Shown: positions 21,541 through 28,484 of the stretch, one piece after another
Numbering within the stretch: position 1 is the first letter of the stretch
How the letters are laid out: each line of letters begins with the position of its first letter
Assembly (NCBI GenBank): GCA_913051705.1
Contig: CAJXCW010000025.1
Coordinates: 1-32,323 of the forward strand
DNA length: 32,323 nt
From: an uncultured bacterium
GTDB taxonomy: Bacteria > JAAXHH01
Direction of reading: 5' to 3'
Program-made: the position numbers and the translations under genes
Notes under the pieces: model-generated
Seen by the model: the letters and a program-made list of their open reading frames with translations, nothing else
Database searches by the model: none
What the model was told of the DNA's origin: nothing

Positions 21541-22467
21541 TTAAAAAATTCTCATTCGAATACCGTTTGTCTTTACGTGTTGTACCAGATCCTCTGTAGA
21601 GTCCAGTAGCTGCTGAATTCTAAGGTGCAACGTTTCATCCATGATCATCTGGCCAGCCGTCCCCTCGCCTCGCTTTATCTTCTCGCTTATGTCCTGCACA
21701 TTGGCCAACACGGTCCGCACATCGGATAAGAGTTGCGGAATCTGTTCCACTCCGGCCTGTACTGTGGCAATGGTCGTATCTATTTTACCCCGATTGGCCG
21801 CCAGCAAGGCGTTTATCTGATTGGTAAGATGGGCGGCCTGATTGACTATCGTATGAATATCTTGTTCGTTTTTATTCAGCACACGATTGACGCTGGAGAT
21901 CGTCGTATTGACATCATTGATCAACGTCTGTGCCATATGCAACGTGATCATCAGCTCGCCCGGCTTGTCACCGCTGGCCAGCAGATGGTCTACTGAGGAG
22001 GTAATACGCTGTGTGTTCATCGCAACTTGTGAGATCACTTCCAGCAAGGCTTGAATGGCGACCGTCTCTTCACCGGGAATAACAATAGCCGAATCCAATA
22101 GTGGGGCTTGAGGGGTCCCCGGTGATATTTGCATATACTTTTCGCCCCCCAGAAGACCGACACTTCGAATGGTGACCTTGGCATCGGTTCGGATTGCGAT
22201 GAACTCATCTATTGTAATCGTCACTTCGACATGATGGTCCTCATTCACATCCACCTCGGTCACCACGCCGACTTTTTTTCCTGCAAACTGAACATCTGTC
22301 CCCTGGGCGATCCCTCCACTTATCTCATGCGGAAAATATACGATATATGTTTTCTTACCTACAAACAGTTCCTCAAGGTTACTGGCAAAAAAAAGCATGG
22401 TAATCAGGATAATCATAGCCGACACCAACATAGTGCCTACGCGAATATCCGATCGTTGATAGTTGAT
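21541..22467 (-). CDS. mlaD: MCE-domain protein, MlaD-like phospholipid-binding component (possible ATC start at 22467; first canonical ATG at 22431)
   Basis: TM helix, then TYIVYFPHEISGGIAQGTDVQFAGKKVGVVTEVDV ... VTIRSVGLLGGEKYMQISPGTP (MCE). Upstream in-frame residues NYQRSDIRVGTM extend the ORF to an ATC preceded by GAGGAG. Confidence 0.88.
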   Translation of the reverse strand: MNYQRSDIRVGTMLVSAMIILITMLFFASNLEELFVGKKTYIVYFPHEISGGIAQGTDVQFAGKKVGVVTEVDVNEDHHVEVTITIDEFIAIRTDAKVTIRSVGLLGGEKYMQISPGTPQAPLLDSAIVIPGEETVAIQALLEVISQVAMNTQRITSSVDHLLASGDKPGELMITLHMAQTLINDVNTTISSVNRVLNKNEQDIHTIVNQAAHLTNQINALLAANRGKIDTTIATVQAGVEQIPQLLSDVRTVLANVQDISEKIKRGEGTAGQMIMDETLHLRIQQLLDSTEDLVQHVKTNGIRMRIF

Positions 22468-22503
22468 GGCGGGGCTCCTCTATGACTGACAAGGAACAAT
22501 ACA

Positions 22504-23295
22504 CTACAAATTACTGCCCAACAAGGATTGTTCGTATTCTTCCCGGGACTGTCTCAATTGAATCGGTCCGTCCGGATCACCATTTATATATTGGCGGACC
22601 AGGGGATCTTCCGTCTGCTTCATCTCATCCGGCGTCCCTTCAAAACATATCTCGCCATGATGTAATAAAATTAGTTTATGCGCTATTTCCATTACACTGC
22701 CAGGATCGTTCGTGAAGACCACAGAGGTCATCTTCAAGACCTGATTGAGATCCGTGATTAATTTCGTAATGGCTCTGGATGATATGGGATCCAACCCGGA
22801 CGTAGGCTCGTCGTAGAGCACAATCTTCGGCTCAAGCGCGATCGCCCGGGCCAGGGCTACGTGCTTCTGCATACCCGGATTTAGTTGTCGGGGCAGGTAG
22901 TCTTCGAAATCCGGGAGACCGACCTGATCGAGCTTCATCTTTACCATAATGTCGATGATTTTCGGATCAAGCTCTGTATTTTCGACCATGGGCAACGCGA
23001 TATTTTCGCGGACCGACATGTTTTGAAATAAAGCGGCATGCTGAAAGAGAACCCCTATTTTTCGCCTGATATCGTTTAACGTTTCTTCATCATCTGTCCG
23101 AATTTCCCGGCCAAAAATTCGGATCTCACCCTCATCCGGGTCTATCGCGCCGACCAGCATTTTAATCAACGTACTTTTTCCCTCACCGCCCCTTCCCAAT
23201 ATACCGGTAATATGACCGGGTTCACAGGTGAAGGACAGATCGTTCAAGACCTTCAATTCACCGAATCGTTTATAGAGGCCAATGACTTCTATCAT
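22504..23295 (-). CDS. mlaF: ABC transporter ATPase, MlaF-like, with degenerate signature motif and H-loop
   Basis: Adjacent to MlaE/MlaD. Walker A GRGGEGKST, Walker B IVLYDEPTSGLDP, signature LNPGMQKHVALARAIA, H-loop position FTNDPGSVMEIA. Confidence 0.9.
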   Translation of the reverse strand: MIEVIGLYKRFGELKVLNDLSFTCEPGHITGILGRGGEGKSTLIKMLVGAIDPDEGEIRIFGREIRTDDEETLNDIRRKIGVLFQHAALFQNMSVRENIALPMVENTELDPKIIDIMVKMKLDQVGLPDFEDYLPRQLNPGMQKHVALARAIALEPKIVLYDEPTSGLDPISSRAITKLITDLNQVLKMTSVVFTNDPGSVMEIAHKLILLHHGEICFEGTPDEMKQTEDPLVRQYINGDPDGPIQLRQSREEYEQSLLGSNL

Positions 23296-23301
23296 ACAAT
23301 A

Positions 23302-23374
23302 AACAAATGAACAGATGAGCAGATGAGCAAGGGATAATCCTGAGTTATAGCGGACTTCTTATGGCTCATCTGCT
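23302..23374. repeat. Octad tandem/inverted repeat between mlaE and mlaF
   Basis: AACAAATG/AACAGATG/AGCAGATG/AGCAAGGG (23302-23333). AGCAGATGAGC (23318-23328) is inverted to GCTCATCTGCT (23364-23374). Confidence 0.55.
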
Positions 23375-23380
23375 TTTTAA

Positions 23381-24175
23381 TCATAACAAATAGAATATAA
23401 TAGAGAGTATACCGTCTGCAACGATCACCGTGATGGTGCAGGAAACAATGGAAACCATTGTCGCGCGTCCGACACTTTCAGCGCCACCGGATACATTGAG
23501 ACCTGTATAGCAGGCGATAAGAATAATCAATATACCAAATATGACGCTTTTGAGCAAGCTGAAGAATACATCCGTCACTGTAAAGGCCGAGAGCACCCCC
23601 TCCAGGTATATCTGAAACGGCAGATCAAGCCCTACCGTTGCGATAACCACACTGACGGTAACACCTATCAAATCAGCGATGAGCGTTAAACAGGGTAATA
23701 TGATCACGGCAGCTACAAATCGGGGCAGAATCAAATATTCTACGGGATTAACCGCCATGACCTCCAGAGCCAGCATTTCATTGTCTACGACCATCGTACC
23801 CAGTCTGGCCGTCACCAGAGCCCCCACCCGTCCTGCCACCACTATGCCGGTCAACAACGGATTTAATTCTCTTATGAGAAATATCGTGACGATAGATGAG
23901 GCATAATCTGATACGCCGAAGGTCCGAAGTTGCAGTCCGAACAGAAAGATGAGCGCTGTGGCAATGGAGCAGGACATCACCAGAATCAAAGGAAAAGAAC
24001 GCACGCCCATCTCATCCATCTCACGAATGATAGACGTCAATCTGAGCGGCTTTCCACGCTTTGGACCGATAAAGAGCCAGCAGAAGATGTCCCTGGCAAG
24101 GTAGGAAATATTAGATAGGTGGATAAGCAGGCTAATGACCGTCGACCCTATCCATCCCATTGTGTTGGTTATCAT
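23381..24175 (-). CDS. mlaE: MlaE-family ABC transporter permease
   Basis: VRSFPLILVMSCSIATALIFLFGLQLRTFG, RELNPLLTGIVVAGRVGALVTARLGTMVVDNEMLALEVMAVNPVEYLILPR. Multiple TM helices. Confidence 0.92.
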   Translation of the reverse strand: MITNTMGWIGSTVISLLIHLSNISYLARDIFCWLFIGPKRGKPLRLTSIIREMDEMGVRSFPLILVMSCSIATALIFLFGLQLRTFGVSDYASSIVTIFLIRELNPLLTGIVVAGRVGALVTARLGTMVVDNEMLALEVMAVNPVEYLILPRFVAAVIILPCLTLIADLIGVTVSVVIATVGLDLPFQIYLEGVLSAFTVTDVFFSLLKSVIFGILIILIACYTGLNVSGGAESVGRATMVSIVSCTITVIVADGILSIIFYLL

Positions 24176-24185
24176 GCCCTAAAAA

Positions 24186-24527
24186 TTACAGATCATTCAT
24201 GGCATCTGTTATCGTTGGATATATGGAGAAAACCGAATCCAGCCGGGCCAATTTGAAGATATCCTGTACGGCATCGCTTAACTCAGCCAGCCGAAAAGAA
24301 ATCCCCGACTTCATCGATTGTTGCAGCCCTTCTACTAACGTCGCAATACCGGAACTATCCATATAGGATACATGTACAAGGTGTACAATGATCGCAGAGG
24401 TACTGGTATCCAGCAACGGCGCCAATTGCTGTCTGACCTCGGTGGAACTGCTCATATCCACCTCACCCTGAACGCTAAGGACATAGATCCCTGTCTTCTG
24501 TTCTTGTACCTCTATGGTCACACTCAC
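24186..24527 (-). CDS. STAS-domain anti-anti-sigma factor / MlaB-like protein
   Basis: 113 aa STAS domain with the phospho-acceptor motif SYMDSSGIATLVEGLQQ (Ser58 by position). Confidence 0.92.
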   Translation of the reverse strand: MSVTIEVQEQKTGIYVLSVQGEVDMSSSTEVRQQLAPLLDTSTSAIIVHLVHVSYMDSSGIATLVEGLQQSMKSGISFRLAELSDAVQDIFKLARLDSVFSIYPTITDAMNDL

Positions 24528-24973
24528 GTAGCTATTCCTCCTGTCTCAGGATAACGCTTGATCAATGTAAGACACGTACCCACCTCGGGGCTCAGGTCAT
24601 AGTCCATCTCATCCATTACAGAACGCATGAGGTGTGTCCCCAGCCCGCCCGGCCTCACCTCATCCAGGTCGCGGGGTTTGATGGTATCCAGATCCGCTTT
24701 AACGCCATAATCTCGAATGGAAATTTTGATACCGTTGGGCACGCCGGATAGAGAGACCCTAATCTTTTTGGTTTCATCCAGGTTATAAGCATACTTAATC
24801 ACATTTGAACACGCTTCATCGACAGCCAGTACGATATGCCGGATGTCTTCATCCGGGAAGGGGTGCGCCTGAAAATACGTTTTGATCACCCTCCGTACAA
24901 TTTTCAGGAATTCGGCGTTACTTGGAATGGTAACTGAGACCTGACTCGATTGATCCTCATCCTGATCACTCAT
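24524..24973 (-). CDS. RsbW/SpoIIAB-like serine kinase (HATPase_c_2)
   Basis: IVLAVDEACSNVIKYAYNLDETKKIRVSLSGVPNGIKISIRDYG ... PGGLGTHLMRSVMDEMDYD. Overlaps both neighbouring genes. Confidence 0.9.
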   Translation of the reverse strand: MSDQDEDQSSQVSVTIPSNAEFLKIVRRVIKTYFQAHPFPDEDIRHIVLAVDEACSNVIKYAYNLDETKKIRVSLSGVPNGIKISIRDYGVKADLDTIKPRDLDEVRPGGLGTHLMRSVMDEMDYDLSPEVGTCLTLIKRYPETGGIAT

Positions 24974-26363
24974 CCACAGCTCCTAAACAAACGAGCGTAA
25001 GATCATCATGCTGTGGTTGTTCATTTGTAAAGGCGACCAGTTCCTGGCGTATATCCCGCACCGTCGATTCGGCATGGGAAGATCCTGCCTTTAGTAATGA
25101 TTGTAAGCGATCAAGACCGAATTCCTGCTTTTCAGCATTACGGGCTTCCATGACGCCATCCGTATATAACAGCAATGTATCTCCGGCATGGAACTGACAG
25201 CATATCGCCTGATACATCATATCCGGCATGATACCCAGAGGGGGGGCGGACTGACTATCCAGCATCTTGACCTCCCCTGTTTTACCCTCCCGAAATAAAG
25301 GCGGTAAATGACCGGCATTAATGATGGTCATAAAATTATCCCGCAATTCGAGCAGGACATACACAAGTGTCACGAATATCCCACGGCGACTGCGTTGTAC
25401 CAGCAGATTGTTAACCCGGGTCAGAACACGTGTGGGATTATGTTCCGTCAGAGCGATAAACCGGAAATCGCTCATTAGTTTCGCCATATACAATGCGGCA
25501 GCCACCCCTTTTCCTGCTACATCACCGATTACGATTCCCAGCCGATTATCCGGGAACTCAATGAAGTCATAAAAATCGCCGCCGACTTCCTGGGCAGCGG
25601 TATATTCGGTGGCGAAAGTATAACCGGCCACGTCCGGTGTTTCTTGGGGCAGGAAGCTCTGCTGCACGGTCTGCGCGAACTGAAGATCATGTTCCAATGC
25701 TTGCCGCGCTATCAACCGCTCCTGCATCCGCGCATTTTCAATGGCGATAGCCGCCTGGACACAGAAGGCCTCAAACAATTCAAGATCCCCGGAATTAAAA
25801 GGCAGGCCATCCTGTTTATTAATGGCCTGTGATACGCCGAGGATCTTGTTTGAGGATTTAATAGGGACGCAGATCATGGATTTCGTATGATAACCGGTCT
25901 CCTTATCGTAGTGGTCATTAAACCTGGGATGTTTATAGACGTCTTCGATCAGTTCGGCCTGACCCTGCTCTGCGACCCAACCGGCAATACCCTGGCCCAA
26001 TTGCAAGGGAGGTAATGCCTTTAATTTACCTCCAGCGCCGCCCTCGACAATAAGGGGAACCAGCGTTTGGGATGCTTCATCAAGGAGAAAGAGACTGCTG
26101 GCGTCTGCGTTGACGACCCGTTTGGATTCGCTCATGATACGCGACAACAAATCATCCAGAACGATGGTCGAATTCAGAAACGATGTGATTTCTACCAGCT
26201 TCTCAAGGTTTTCCACTTTGCGGCGGTAATAATCCACGTCCTGATTGCTGTTTTCACCATAACAACGCGGATCATCTGAAACAGGTAGGTGGCTGGCATG
26301 CGATGCACTCATAAGACGCTCACTATCTGAACGGATGTCTTTTTCCAACATCATGGACAACAT
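24966..26363 (-). CDS. GAF domain + PP2C/SpoIIE-type serine phosphatase (RsbU-like)
   Basis: GAF region (FLNSTIVLDDLLSRIMSESKRVVNADASSLFLLDE ... GQGIAGWVAEQGQ), then PP2C_SIGMA (EVGGDFYDFIEFPDNRLGIVIGDVAGKGVAAALYMA ... DTLLLYTDGVMEARN). Confidence 0.93.
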   Translation of the reverse strand: MLSMMLEKDIRSDSERLMSASHASHLPVSDDPRCYGENSNQDVDYYRRKVENLEKLVEITSFLNSTIVLDDLLSRIMSESKRVVNADASSLFLLDEASQTLVPLIVEGGAGGKLKALPPLQLGQGIAGWVAEQGQAELIEDVYKHPRFNDHYDKETGYHTKSMICVPIKSSNKILGVSQAINKQDGLPFNSGDLELFEAFCVQAAIAIENARMQERLIARQALEHDLQFAQTVQQSFLPQETPDVAGYTFATEYTAAQEVGGDFYDFIEFPDNRLGIVIGDVAGKGVAAALYMAKLMSDFRFIALTEHNPTRVLTRVNNLLVQRSRRGIFVTLVYVLLELRDNFMTIINAGHLPPLFREGKTGEVKMLDSQSAPPLGIMPDMMYQAICCQFHAGDTLLLYTDGVMEARNAEKQEFGLDRLQSLLKAGSSHAESTVRDIRQELVAFTNEQPQHDDLTLVCLGAVDE

Positions 26364-26396
26364 ATGGAAAGGGACGGCTCTTATCTTACAGAACGG

Positions 26397-28484
26397 TTAT
26401 TCCCCTTCCTGGATTTCTTTTGCCTCTGCGATAACTTTTCTTTCCTCTTCTTTCGGCATTTCATCATAGCGCACAAATTTACGGGTATGACTGCCGCGGC
26501 CCTGGGTAAAAGAACGTAAAGTAGTTGAATATTTGTGTAACTCGGCCAACGGCACCTCGGCTCGAACGACCTGATTACTGCCCTTAGGGTCCATACCCAG
26601 AATACGACCACGACGGCTCGATAGATCGCCCATTACATCGCCCATATATTCATCGGGCACCACGACCTCAACCTCATAGATCGGCTCCAGTAATATGGGT
26701 TTGGCATTCATAAACGCCTTTTTAAATCCCATAGAAGCGGCTACTTTAAACGCCATCTCCGACGAATCTACCGTATGATAAGAACCATCATATAACGTCG
26801 CCTGAATATCAACTATCGGATACCCGGCCACAACGCCTTCATGCAGGGCTTCCTGAATGCCTTTATCCACAGCCGGAATAAACCGACCAGGCACCACACC
26901 GCCGACTATGCCATTAACAAACTCATATCCCTCACCACGCGGTTTAGGCTCTATCTTAAGCCATGTGTCGCCGAACTGTCCTCGACCGCCGCTCTGTCGC
27001 TTGAATCGTCCCTGAGCTTCAGCCCTTCCTTTAATCGCCTCACGATAAGGGATTCTTGGTTGAATCATCTCAACATCTACGCCGAATCGATCTTTAAGTC
27101 TTTCAACAATCAGGTCAAGATGCATTTCTCCGGCACCCGCCAGGATCAATTGCTTGATGTCTCCGTCATAGTTAAAAATGAACGAAGGGTCTTCCTCATG
27201 CAATCGGGACAGGCCCATACTGATTTTCTCTTCATCTTCCTTACTTTTAGGTATGACTGCTACATTGGCTACCTGTTCAGCGAAAGTGACCCAGCTCAGG
27301 ACAACCGGATCTTGGCGCACACACAACGTGTCACCGGTATGTGTATCTTTCAGTTTGACGGCCGCACCGATTTCGCCAGCGCGGATGGTATCGAACTCCC
27401 TCCGGTCATGTCCAAGTGTTTTGTAAATCTGACCGAATCTCTCATTGTTGTGTTTTGAAGCGTTAAATACGTCAGCCCCGGCCTTTATCTCCCCAGAATA
27501 GACTCGGAAATAAGTCAGCTCGCCGATATGGGCTTCTGAAACGATTTTGAAGACCAGAGCGGATAAGGGTGCTGAAGGGGCGTGGTCGAGCGTAATTTCT
27601 TCGTCGCTATCCGGTCTTGTACAGACCGTAGCGGGTCGGTCTGCCGGCGAGGGCATGAATTGAACCATCGTATCCAGTATGCCGGATGTGCCAATATTTA
27701 ATGATGCGGACGTACTTAAAACTGGAAACACAGTACCATTTTTCACACCGATCATCAATCCTCGAATAAGTTGTTCATCAGTCAAAGCCCCTTCCTCGAA
27801 ATATAATTCGAGTAAATCATCATCAGATTCAGCTGCTGCTTCGATCAATTTTTCTCGGTACTCTTCCGCCTGATCTGCAAGGTCATTCGGTATATCCTGT
27901 ATCTGGCCCTTTCCATCTCCACCCCGATCGTAGATAATGGCCTTCATGGATACCAGATCGACGACACCGGAAAACGATTCGCTGGTTCCTATTGGAATCT
28001 GGAACGGTACCGCGTGCTGTCCAAAGCGTTCCTGCAAGCGGTTCAACACATCAAAAAAATCGGCATGTTCTTTATCAAGGAGATTGACGACCAGCATACG
28101 TGGCAGACCATACTCTTCTGCATATTCCCAGGCATGCTCGGTCTCGATCTCGATACCTTCTATAGCCCGTATGATAATGGCGATGCTATCCGATACCCGA
28201 GCTGCACATCGCACTTCACTGGTGAAGTCGGAGTAGCCGGGTGTATCGATAAAATGGATAGTATGGTCGATCCATTCGCAATGCAACGGGGTTAGATTCA
28301 TTGAAATCTTATGGTCGATCTCTTCTTTTCGGTAGTCAGACGTGGTATTACCGGCCCCCACCTCACCCAATCTATCAATTTCGCCTGTTGTGAAAAGTAT
28401 AGCCTCTGCGAGGGATGTTTTACCACTACCGCCATGTCCGGCTAAGCAGATATTTCGAATATTTTCAATACGATAATCCTCCAC
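26397..28484 (-). CDS. Elongation factor G-like translational GTPase (EF-G2 type)
   Basis: 695 aa. GHGGSGKTSLAEAI P-loop, FIDTPGYSDF G3, C-terminal EF-G domains (GGVVPGRFIPAVDKGIQEALHEGVVAGYPIVDIQATLYDGSYHTVDSSEMAFKVAASMGFKKA). Confidence 0.93.
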   Translation of the reverse strand: MEDYRIENIRNICLAGHGGSGKTSLAEAILFTTGEIDRLGEVGAGNTTSDYRKEEIDHKISMNLTPLHCEWIDHTIHFIDTPGYSDFTSEVRCAARVSDSIAIIIRAIEGIEIETEHAWEYAEEYGLPRMLVVNLLDKEHADFFDVLNRLQERFGQHAVPFQIPIGTSESFSGVVDLVSMKAIIYDRGGDGKGQIQDIPNDLADQAEEYREKLIEAAAESDDDLLELYFEEGALTDEQLIRGLMIGVKNGTVFPVLSTSASLNIGTSGILDTMVQFMPSPADRPATVCTRPDSDEEITLDHAPSAPLSALVFKIVSEAHIGELTYFRVYSGEIKAGADVFNASKHNNERFGQIYKTLGHDRREFDTIRAGEIGAAVKLKDTHTGDTLCVRQDPVVLSWVTFAEQVANVAVIPKSKEDEEKISMGLSRLHEEDPSFIFNYDGDIKQLILAGAGEMHLDLIVERLKDRFGVDVEMIQPRIPYREAIKGRAEAQGRFKRQSGGRGQFGDTWLKIEPKPRGEGYEFVNGIVGGVVPGRFIPAVDKGIQEALHEGVVAGYPIVDIQATLYDGSYHTVDSSEMAFKVAASMGFKKAFMNAKPILLEPIYEVEVVVPDEYMGDVMGDLSSRRGRILGMDPKGSNQVVRAEVPLAELHKYSTTLRSFTQGRGSHTRKFVRYDEMPKEEERKVIAEAKEIQEGE

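Follow-up and report, generated by a model that had tools for sequence, protein, structure and literature searches.

A partner-switching gene module within an Mla-type phospholipid transporter operon: a candidate system for phosphorylation-gated lipid trafficking

The operon and its genes

The window analysed here is the whole of contig CAJXCW010000025.1 (32,323 nucleotides; assembly GCA_913051705.1), from an uncultured bacterium. On its minus strand lies a cluster of genes encoding an RsbU-like phosphatase, an RsbW-like kinase, a STAS protein and the MlaE, MlaF and MlaD components of an Mla-type lipid transporter. Judging from the protein sequences, the operon probably encodes an Mla-type phospholipid ATP-binding cassette (ABC) transporter whose MlaB-equivalent STAS protein is also the substrate of a partner switch. 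That this is a widespread gene system is well supported, whereas the biochemistry of the switch is a prediction. The features of the locus are the following.

24966..26363, minus strand: RsbU-like phosphatase with a GAF sensor and a SpoIIE PP2C domain (Pfam; SpoIIE E = 8.6e-49, GAF E = 3.7e-21)
24524..24973, minus strand: RsbW-like serine kinase, HATPase_c_2 (Pfam, 1.5e-26)
24186..24527, minus strand: STAS switch protein, the proposed counterpart of MlaB and substrate of the kinase (Pfam, 5.1e-20)
24354..24356, minus strand: codon of Ser58, the predicted phosphosite, in D-S-S-G (alignment to SpoIIAA/RsbV)
23381..24175, minus strand: MlaE permease (Pfam, 3.8e-63)
22504..23295, minus strand: MlaF ATPase (best PDB matches: MlaF of P. 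aeruginosa, A. baumannii and E. coli)
22870..22884, minus strand: MlaF signature motif, LNPGM in place of LSGGM (motif alignment)
22708..22710, minus strand: MlaF H-loop Asn196 (AAC) replacing the switch His, TND for THD (motif alignment)
22519..22536, minus strand: MlaF C-terminal docking helix, Tyr254/Leu258/Leu259 equivalent to E. coli Tyr261/Leu265/Leu266 (PDB alignment; interface residues from PMC7367683)
21541..22431, minus strand: MlaD, a single MCE domain with an N-terminal membrane anchor (Pfam, 5.3e-17)
26397..28484, minus strand: EF-G-like GTPase, FusA2-type (Pfam)

A first-pass annotation, made from the sequence alone, had named these genes, and Pfam searches confirm every one of them in order, strand and position. 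The tight packing that it described was also found: the phosphatase gene shares 8 nt with the kinase gene, the kinase gene shares 4 nt with the STAS gene, and 10 nt separate STAS from mlaE. MlaE and the MCE-domain protein score above the Pfam cut-offs and an MlaF-type ATPase adjoins them, so the core of an Mla transporter is present. There is no sigma factor gene within the cluster, again as first described.

Conservation of the linkage and of the switch proteins

Scanning 84,980 species genomes with an MlaE alignment gave 80 loci, and in 50 of these a kinase and a STAS gene lie beside the same mlaE gene. The order RsbU-RsbW-STAS-MlaE-MlaF-MlaD is found in Nitrospirota, Nitrospinota, KSB1, Calditrichota, Acidobacteriota, Planctomycetota, Thermodesulfobacteriota and one 'Deferribacteres' bin (phylum names are as given in the sequence records); in these phyla the phosphatase gene does not adjoin the others in every case. 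In the tree, a record titled Emcibacteraceae falls with Nitrospinota, and its name may be wrong. Verrucomicrobiota have a second layout, STAS-MlaE-MlaF-MlaD and then a GAF-SpoIIE-HATPase fusion (e.g. loci L081, L087, L107 and L110, among others), and there are loci in which a phosphatase-kinase fusion is upstream of STAS and still linked to STAS-mlaEFD (L042, L044, L180, L183, L192, L193 and L195). Because the genes have been re-arranged and yet kept together, function explains the linkage better than a frozen inherited block does, and chance adjacency is rejected, since the linkage persists from phylum to phylum and in two arrangements. In two loci (L105 and L134) mlaE and mlaF are apparently fused in one reading frame.

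The set of loci from the MlaE scan was drawn with a profile built from linked members, and for this reason a separate search of 384 genomes was made with a kinase profile. All 18 matches of at least 143 bits belong to mla loci: 17 adjoin mla genes, and one, in genome G014, shares a contig with them but is ∼10 kb distant, following an insertion. Matches at 110–131 bits are mixed. The high-scoring kinase subfamily is specific to Mla. Twelve of the 18 top matches are absent from the profile and all of these are mla-linked, which speaks against the linkage being an artefact of a profile made from its own members. In the phylogenetic tree of the kinases the linked ones are clustered (4 label changes compared with 8.7 in shuffles, from an alignment with few columns and a tree with many unresolved forks).

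Outside the order to which the window genome belongs, the switch–mla linkage occurs in 20 genomes of 14 families in the 384-genome sample, and in four out of 35 MlaE-bearing genomes in a sample of 59 genomes. Two other genomes of the same order have the locus. G015 (locus L040) has the complete series EF-G-RsbU-RsbW-STAS-MlaE-MlaF-MlaD, and in G014 (locus L210) an insertion of ∼10 kb of unrelated genes between STAS and mlaE (L210, 5100-15189) separates EF-G-RsbU-RsbW-STAS from MlaE-F-D, and with it the switch from the transporter. Conservation of gene order was one of the checks that the first-pass annotation had set for its proposal, and synteny thus holds far beyond this contig, given the 50 loci and the 20 genomes.

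RsbW/SpoIIAB-type kinases phosphorylate serines of STAS proteins, and RsbU/SpoIIE phosphatases undo this. One such case is SpoIIE acting on SpoIIAA (PMC8256260). The motifs of the window kinase are intact (Glu53 and Asn57 of the N-box, Asp88 and a GGLG lid), and the window phosphatase retains the metal-binding residues Asp263, Asp281, Asp402 and Asp453/454. MDSSGIA occupies residues 56-62 of the STAS protein, and alignment agrees with the first-pass annotation in placing Ser58 at the phosphosite of SpoIIAA, and of RsbV. Among the switch-linked loci, Glu53 and Asn57 of the kinase are found in 55 out of 55, as is the GGLG lid; the phosphatase Asp residues are retained in 36–37 out of 37 and the STAS serine in 47 out of 54. 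The other seven STAS proteins are all from Verrucomicrobiaceae and have NTP for DSSG (L107, L108, L114, L123, L137, L139 and L145). In exactly these seven, which have phosphatase-kinase fusions, the kinase Asp88 is replaced by His. The two changes are probably one event in one clade, yet both partners are affected, and these Verrucomicrobiaceae possibly represent a natural loss of the switch. The sensor domain varies among the relatives, being mostly GAF (but HAMP in L094).

The same linkage would arise if the STAS protein had the structural role of MlaB known from E. coli and the kinase–phosphatase pair acted on some other target (another STAS protein or a transcription regulator), the operon being shared for co-expression. 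Some Verrucomicrobiota loci fit this explanation, having STAS-mlaEFD with no kinase within 6 kb, as do several Nitrospinota loci where the phosphatase is not nearby. We nevertheless consider it unlikely: the kinase gene adjoins or overlaps the STAS gene in most phyla, the high-scoring kinases are found only at mla loci, and in one clade the loss of the phosphosite goes with that of the kinase Asp.

The STAS protein, MlaF and the proposed gating

The genome of the window (G000), which amounts to 5.45 Mb split over 405 contigs, carries mlaE three times: in the window, on contig C49 (mlaE-F-D) and on C336 (mlaE-D). Neither the C49 nor the C336 locus has a STAS, kinase or phosphatase gene alongside. 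Three other STAS genes are present in the genome, none of them near mlaE (one is a SulP domain), so the separate, dedicated MlaB that the first-pass annotation had allowed for is not found. There is one other standalone HATPase_c_2 protein. Two further MlaF genes, on C35 (locus L199) and C49, have consensus motifs; both are STAS-less and without the docking helix. The mlaE-mlaD pair of C336 (locus L005) has no adjoining MlaF gene, and the orphan MlaF of C35 may be its partner. The genome has one MlaC-family gene, on C166 (locus L219), and none in the window cluster.

The STAS protein is probably the MlaB subunit, because its gene always precedes mlaE, MlaF keeps the docking helix, STAS-less MlaF proteins are without this helix, and no SigB/F/G-type sigma factor scores over the cut-off. 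Both a STAS gene inside the mla operon and an MlaF with the helix (Tyr, Leu, Leu) are present in the window. By a strict pattern the docking helix is found in 40 out of 59 STAS-bearing loci and in two out of 29 STAS-less ones, of which one is G014, with its STAS gene 10 kb upstream, and the other comes from a contig that is truncated; by a looser pattern the counts are 55 out of 59 with STAS and five out of 27 without. Soil Verrucomicrobiota also have mlaE-F-D loci with neither STAS nor switch genes, where the MlaF tail is His-rich or basic and has no docking helix (L104, L119-L122, L124-L127, L129-L132, L134-L136, L141, L142 and L149-L151).

Family profiles place the STAS protein nearer to the sigma switches. 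Its score against TIGR00377 ('anti-sigma factor antagonist') is 83, above the cut-off of 53, and it misses the cut-off of 90 of the MlaB equivalog NF033618 (25.7 bits in the window and 20–34 in relatives). The window kinase is below the equivalog cut-offs of RsbW (70.9 versus 145 bits) and SpoIIAB (47.6 versus 135 bits). Both the STAS and kinase sequences are closer to TM1442, RsbV/SpoIIAA and RsbW/SpoIIAB than to MlaB. This favours an ordinary RsbU/RsbW/RsbV sigma switch that merely sits beside an mla operon, with the STAS protein as its anti-anti-sigma factor and the true MlaB absent; the genome does have ordinary sigma70-family genes, so a non-SigB target is possible. We regard this as very unlikely. 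The cluster contains no sigma gene, and TIGR02980 gives only eight weak matches in the genome, none above the curated cut-off for SigB/F/G-type sigma factors, so the nearby cognate sigma factor considered by the first-pass annotation is not there. Moreover, the linkage is kept across phyla in two layouts, and the MlaF helix tracks the presence of STAS.

The likely reading of these sequences is a partner switch that targets a lipid ABC transporter. We consider it fairly likely, if a little less so than the dual role of the STAS protein in the window operon, that in an Mla class spread over at least eight phyla the ATPase-bound STAS protein is the output of the switch, with phosphorylation directly gating inter-membrane lipid trafficking. 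The kinase would phosphorylate Ser58 of STAS and/or hold the unphosphorylated protein, and STAS that is phosphorylated or kinase-bound could not sit on MlaF, leaving the transporter off. A signal read by GAF (HAMP in some Acidobacteria) would activate the phosphatase; dephosphorylated STAS would return to MlaF, the MlaF dimer would be stabilised on MlaE, and lipid would move. The output would be the transporter and not a sigma factor. In E. coli, MlaB is required for the association of MlaF with the complex, and the T52E substitution of MlaB weakens MlaF binding in pull-downs (PMC7367683). Phospho-regulation of MlaB has been proposed, and was called an open question in the 2020 paper on the MlaFB structure (PMC7367683).

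Several points weigh against this switch-gated transporter. To our knowledge no kinase is known for E. coli MlaB, which keeps Thr52 at the STAS phosphosite position, and so a serine there is no proof by itself; DSSG also occurs in STAS-only loci with no nearby kinase, for which reason Ser58 was rejected as diagnostic of a switch. E. coli MlaB with the T52A substitution remains bound but does not function, and E. coli MlaF without its C-terminal extension still binds MlaB (PMC7367683), which makes the docking helix indirect evidence. STAS presence changes only twice on the MlaE tree, so that the helix correlation comes down to two independent contrasts and is support, not the statistical proof that the counts might suggest. 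AlphaFold chains made by reading in-frame neighbours through the stop codon have a predicted TM-score (pTM) of 0.68 for kinase-STAS (L080) and 0.49 for STAS-MlaE-MlaF (L040), the domains being confident and their mutual placement not; Foldseek searches with the models gave matches to SpoIIAB/RsbW and SpoIIAA/RsbV domains, as expected. Finally, two catalytic motifs of the window MlaF differ from the ATPase consensus (LNPGM replaces LSGGM and TND replaces THD), a point that the first-pass annotation had missed, and the MlaF of G015 (L040, 5929-6720) has LSSGM together with a Walker-B Glu to Ala change.

These substitutions are exceptional. The catalytic motifs are normal in the MlaF of G014; in the other aligned copies the Walker-B and H-loop residues are all kept, as is the signature except for one distant LSYGM, and nearly all other switch-linked loci have the consensus ATPase motifs. 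Lipid transport by the window copy is doubtful because of the two substituted motifs, and it is the wider family that carries the case for gated transport. The first-pass annotation had proposed that the STAS protein is both MlaB and the switch substrate and gates lipid transport. Three of the checks that it set, on synteny, on another MlaB and on a nearby cognate sigma factor, do not refute this proposal; on the fourth, a STAS protein that binds only RsbW, the AlphaFold chains do not decide, but the MlaF docking helix follows STAS presence. The proposal is partly supported: phosphorylation and gating are predictions, and in the window MlaF looks catalytically impaired.

The loci of the window genome and G015 may then be decaying or repurposed copies, in which the switch persists and MlaF has little or no ATPase activity, serving perhaps as a regulatory or heterodimer partner. 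We take this as a real possibility that falls short of probable: it would account for catalytic changes seen in these two copies while nearly all others have the consensus, and consensus-motif MlaF genes do exist elsewhere in the genome (C35 and C49), but the reading frames are intact (that of the window MlaF included), codon-position GC content is normal and conservation of the C-terminal docking region is strong. The two MlaF proteins have different catalytic substitutions, yet both conserve that region. Decay at these two loci is compatible with a gated transporter in the other species. In the window genome the sensing part looks intact, beside an MlaF copy whose transport may be weak, altered or absent.

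The EF-G-like GTPase is probably outside the mechanism: its gene is the same neighbour in both other genomes of the order (L040 and L210) and is absent from this position in other phyla. Upstream of it, at the contig end (28691-32323, minus strand), is an rRNA operon comprising the 5S and 23S genes, two tRNA genes and the 3' end of the 16S gene. Downstream, mlaD is followed by two ABC ATPase genes of the oligopeptide type, as it is in both related genomes.

Comparison with known systems

A literature search, with most subscription papers outside its coverage, found no published account of this operon or of partner switching tied to MlaE or phospholipid transport. Since the MlaFB structure it has been asked whether phosphorylation controls MlaB and hence outer-membrane lipid flow (PMC7367683). 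The operons bring a candidate kinase, phosphatase and substrate together in many species, which makes this question testable with four purified proteins. If the proposal is true, the role of partner switches would widen from transcription to membrane lipid transport, with an ABC transporter as effector, and an ABC transporter would be gated by a SpoIIAB/RsbW-type kinase.

The RsbU-RsbW-RsbV (sigma B) and SpoIIE-SpoIIAB-SpoIIAA (sigma F) switches of B. subtilis are built from these three kinds of protein as well, and share their active-site and phosphosite motifs; the operon described here differs in having no sigma factor and in having a lipid permease gene after STAS. Partner switches are also known outside these Bacillus systems, for example SypE/SypA in V. 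fischeri and HsbR/HsbA in P. aeruginosa (PMC10120452, PMC6482189), and among the cases found none has to do with a transporter.

The mlaE-mlaF-mlaD core is shared with the Veillonella-type MlaEFD, which has no MlaB or other STAS protein and only a shortened MlaF extension (PMC10665443), and so matches the STAS-less loci found here. The phylogenomic survey of Mla systems, which used NF033618 and synteny, reported MlaB to be sparse (PMC10665443); our results suggest that surveys calling MlaB rare (PMC10665443) overlook RsbV-like MlaB proteins labelled 'anti-sigma factor antagonist'. Compared with MlaFEDB of E. coli, A. baumannii and P. aeruginosa, the operon likewise encodes MlaE, MlaF, MlaD and a STAS protein together, and its MlaF has the C-terminal extension with the Tyr-Leu-Leu docking residues. 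It differs in that the STAS protein is RsbV-like, with D-S-S-G and not Thr52, in that the STAS gene comes first and is followed by mlaE-mlaF-mlaD, with no mlaC in the cluster, and in that the kinase and the phosphatase are encoded in the same operon.

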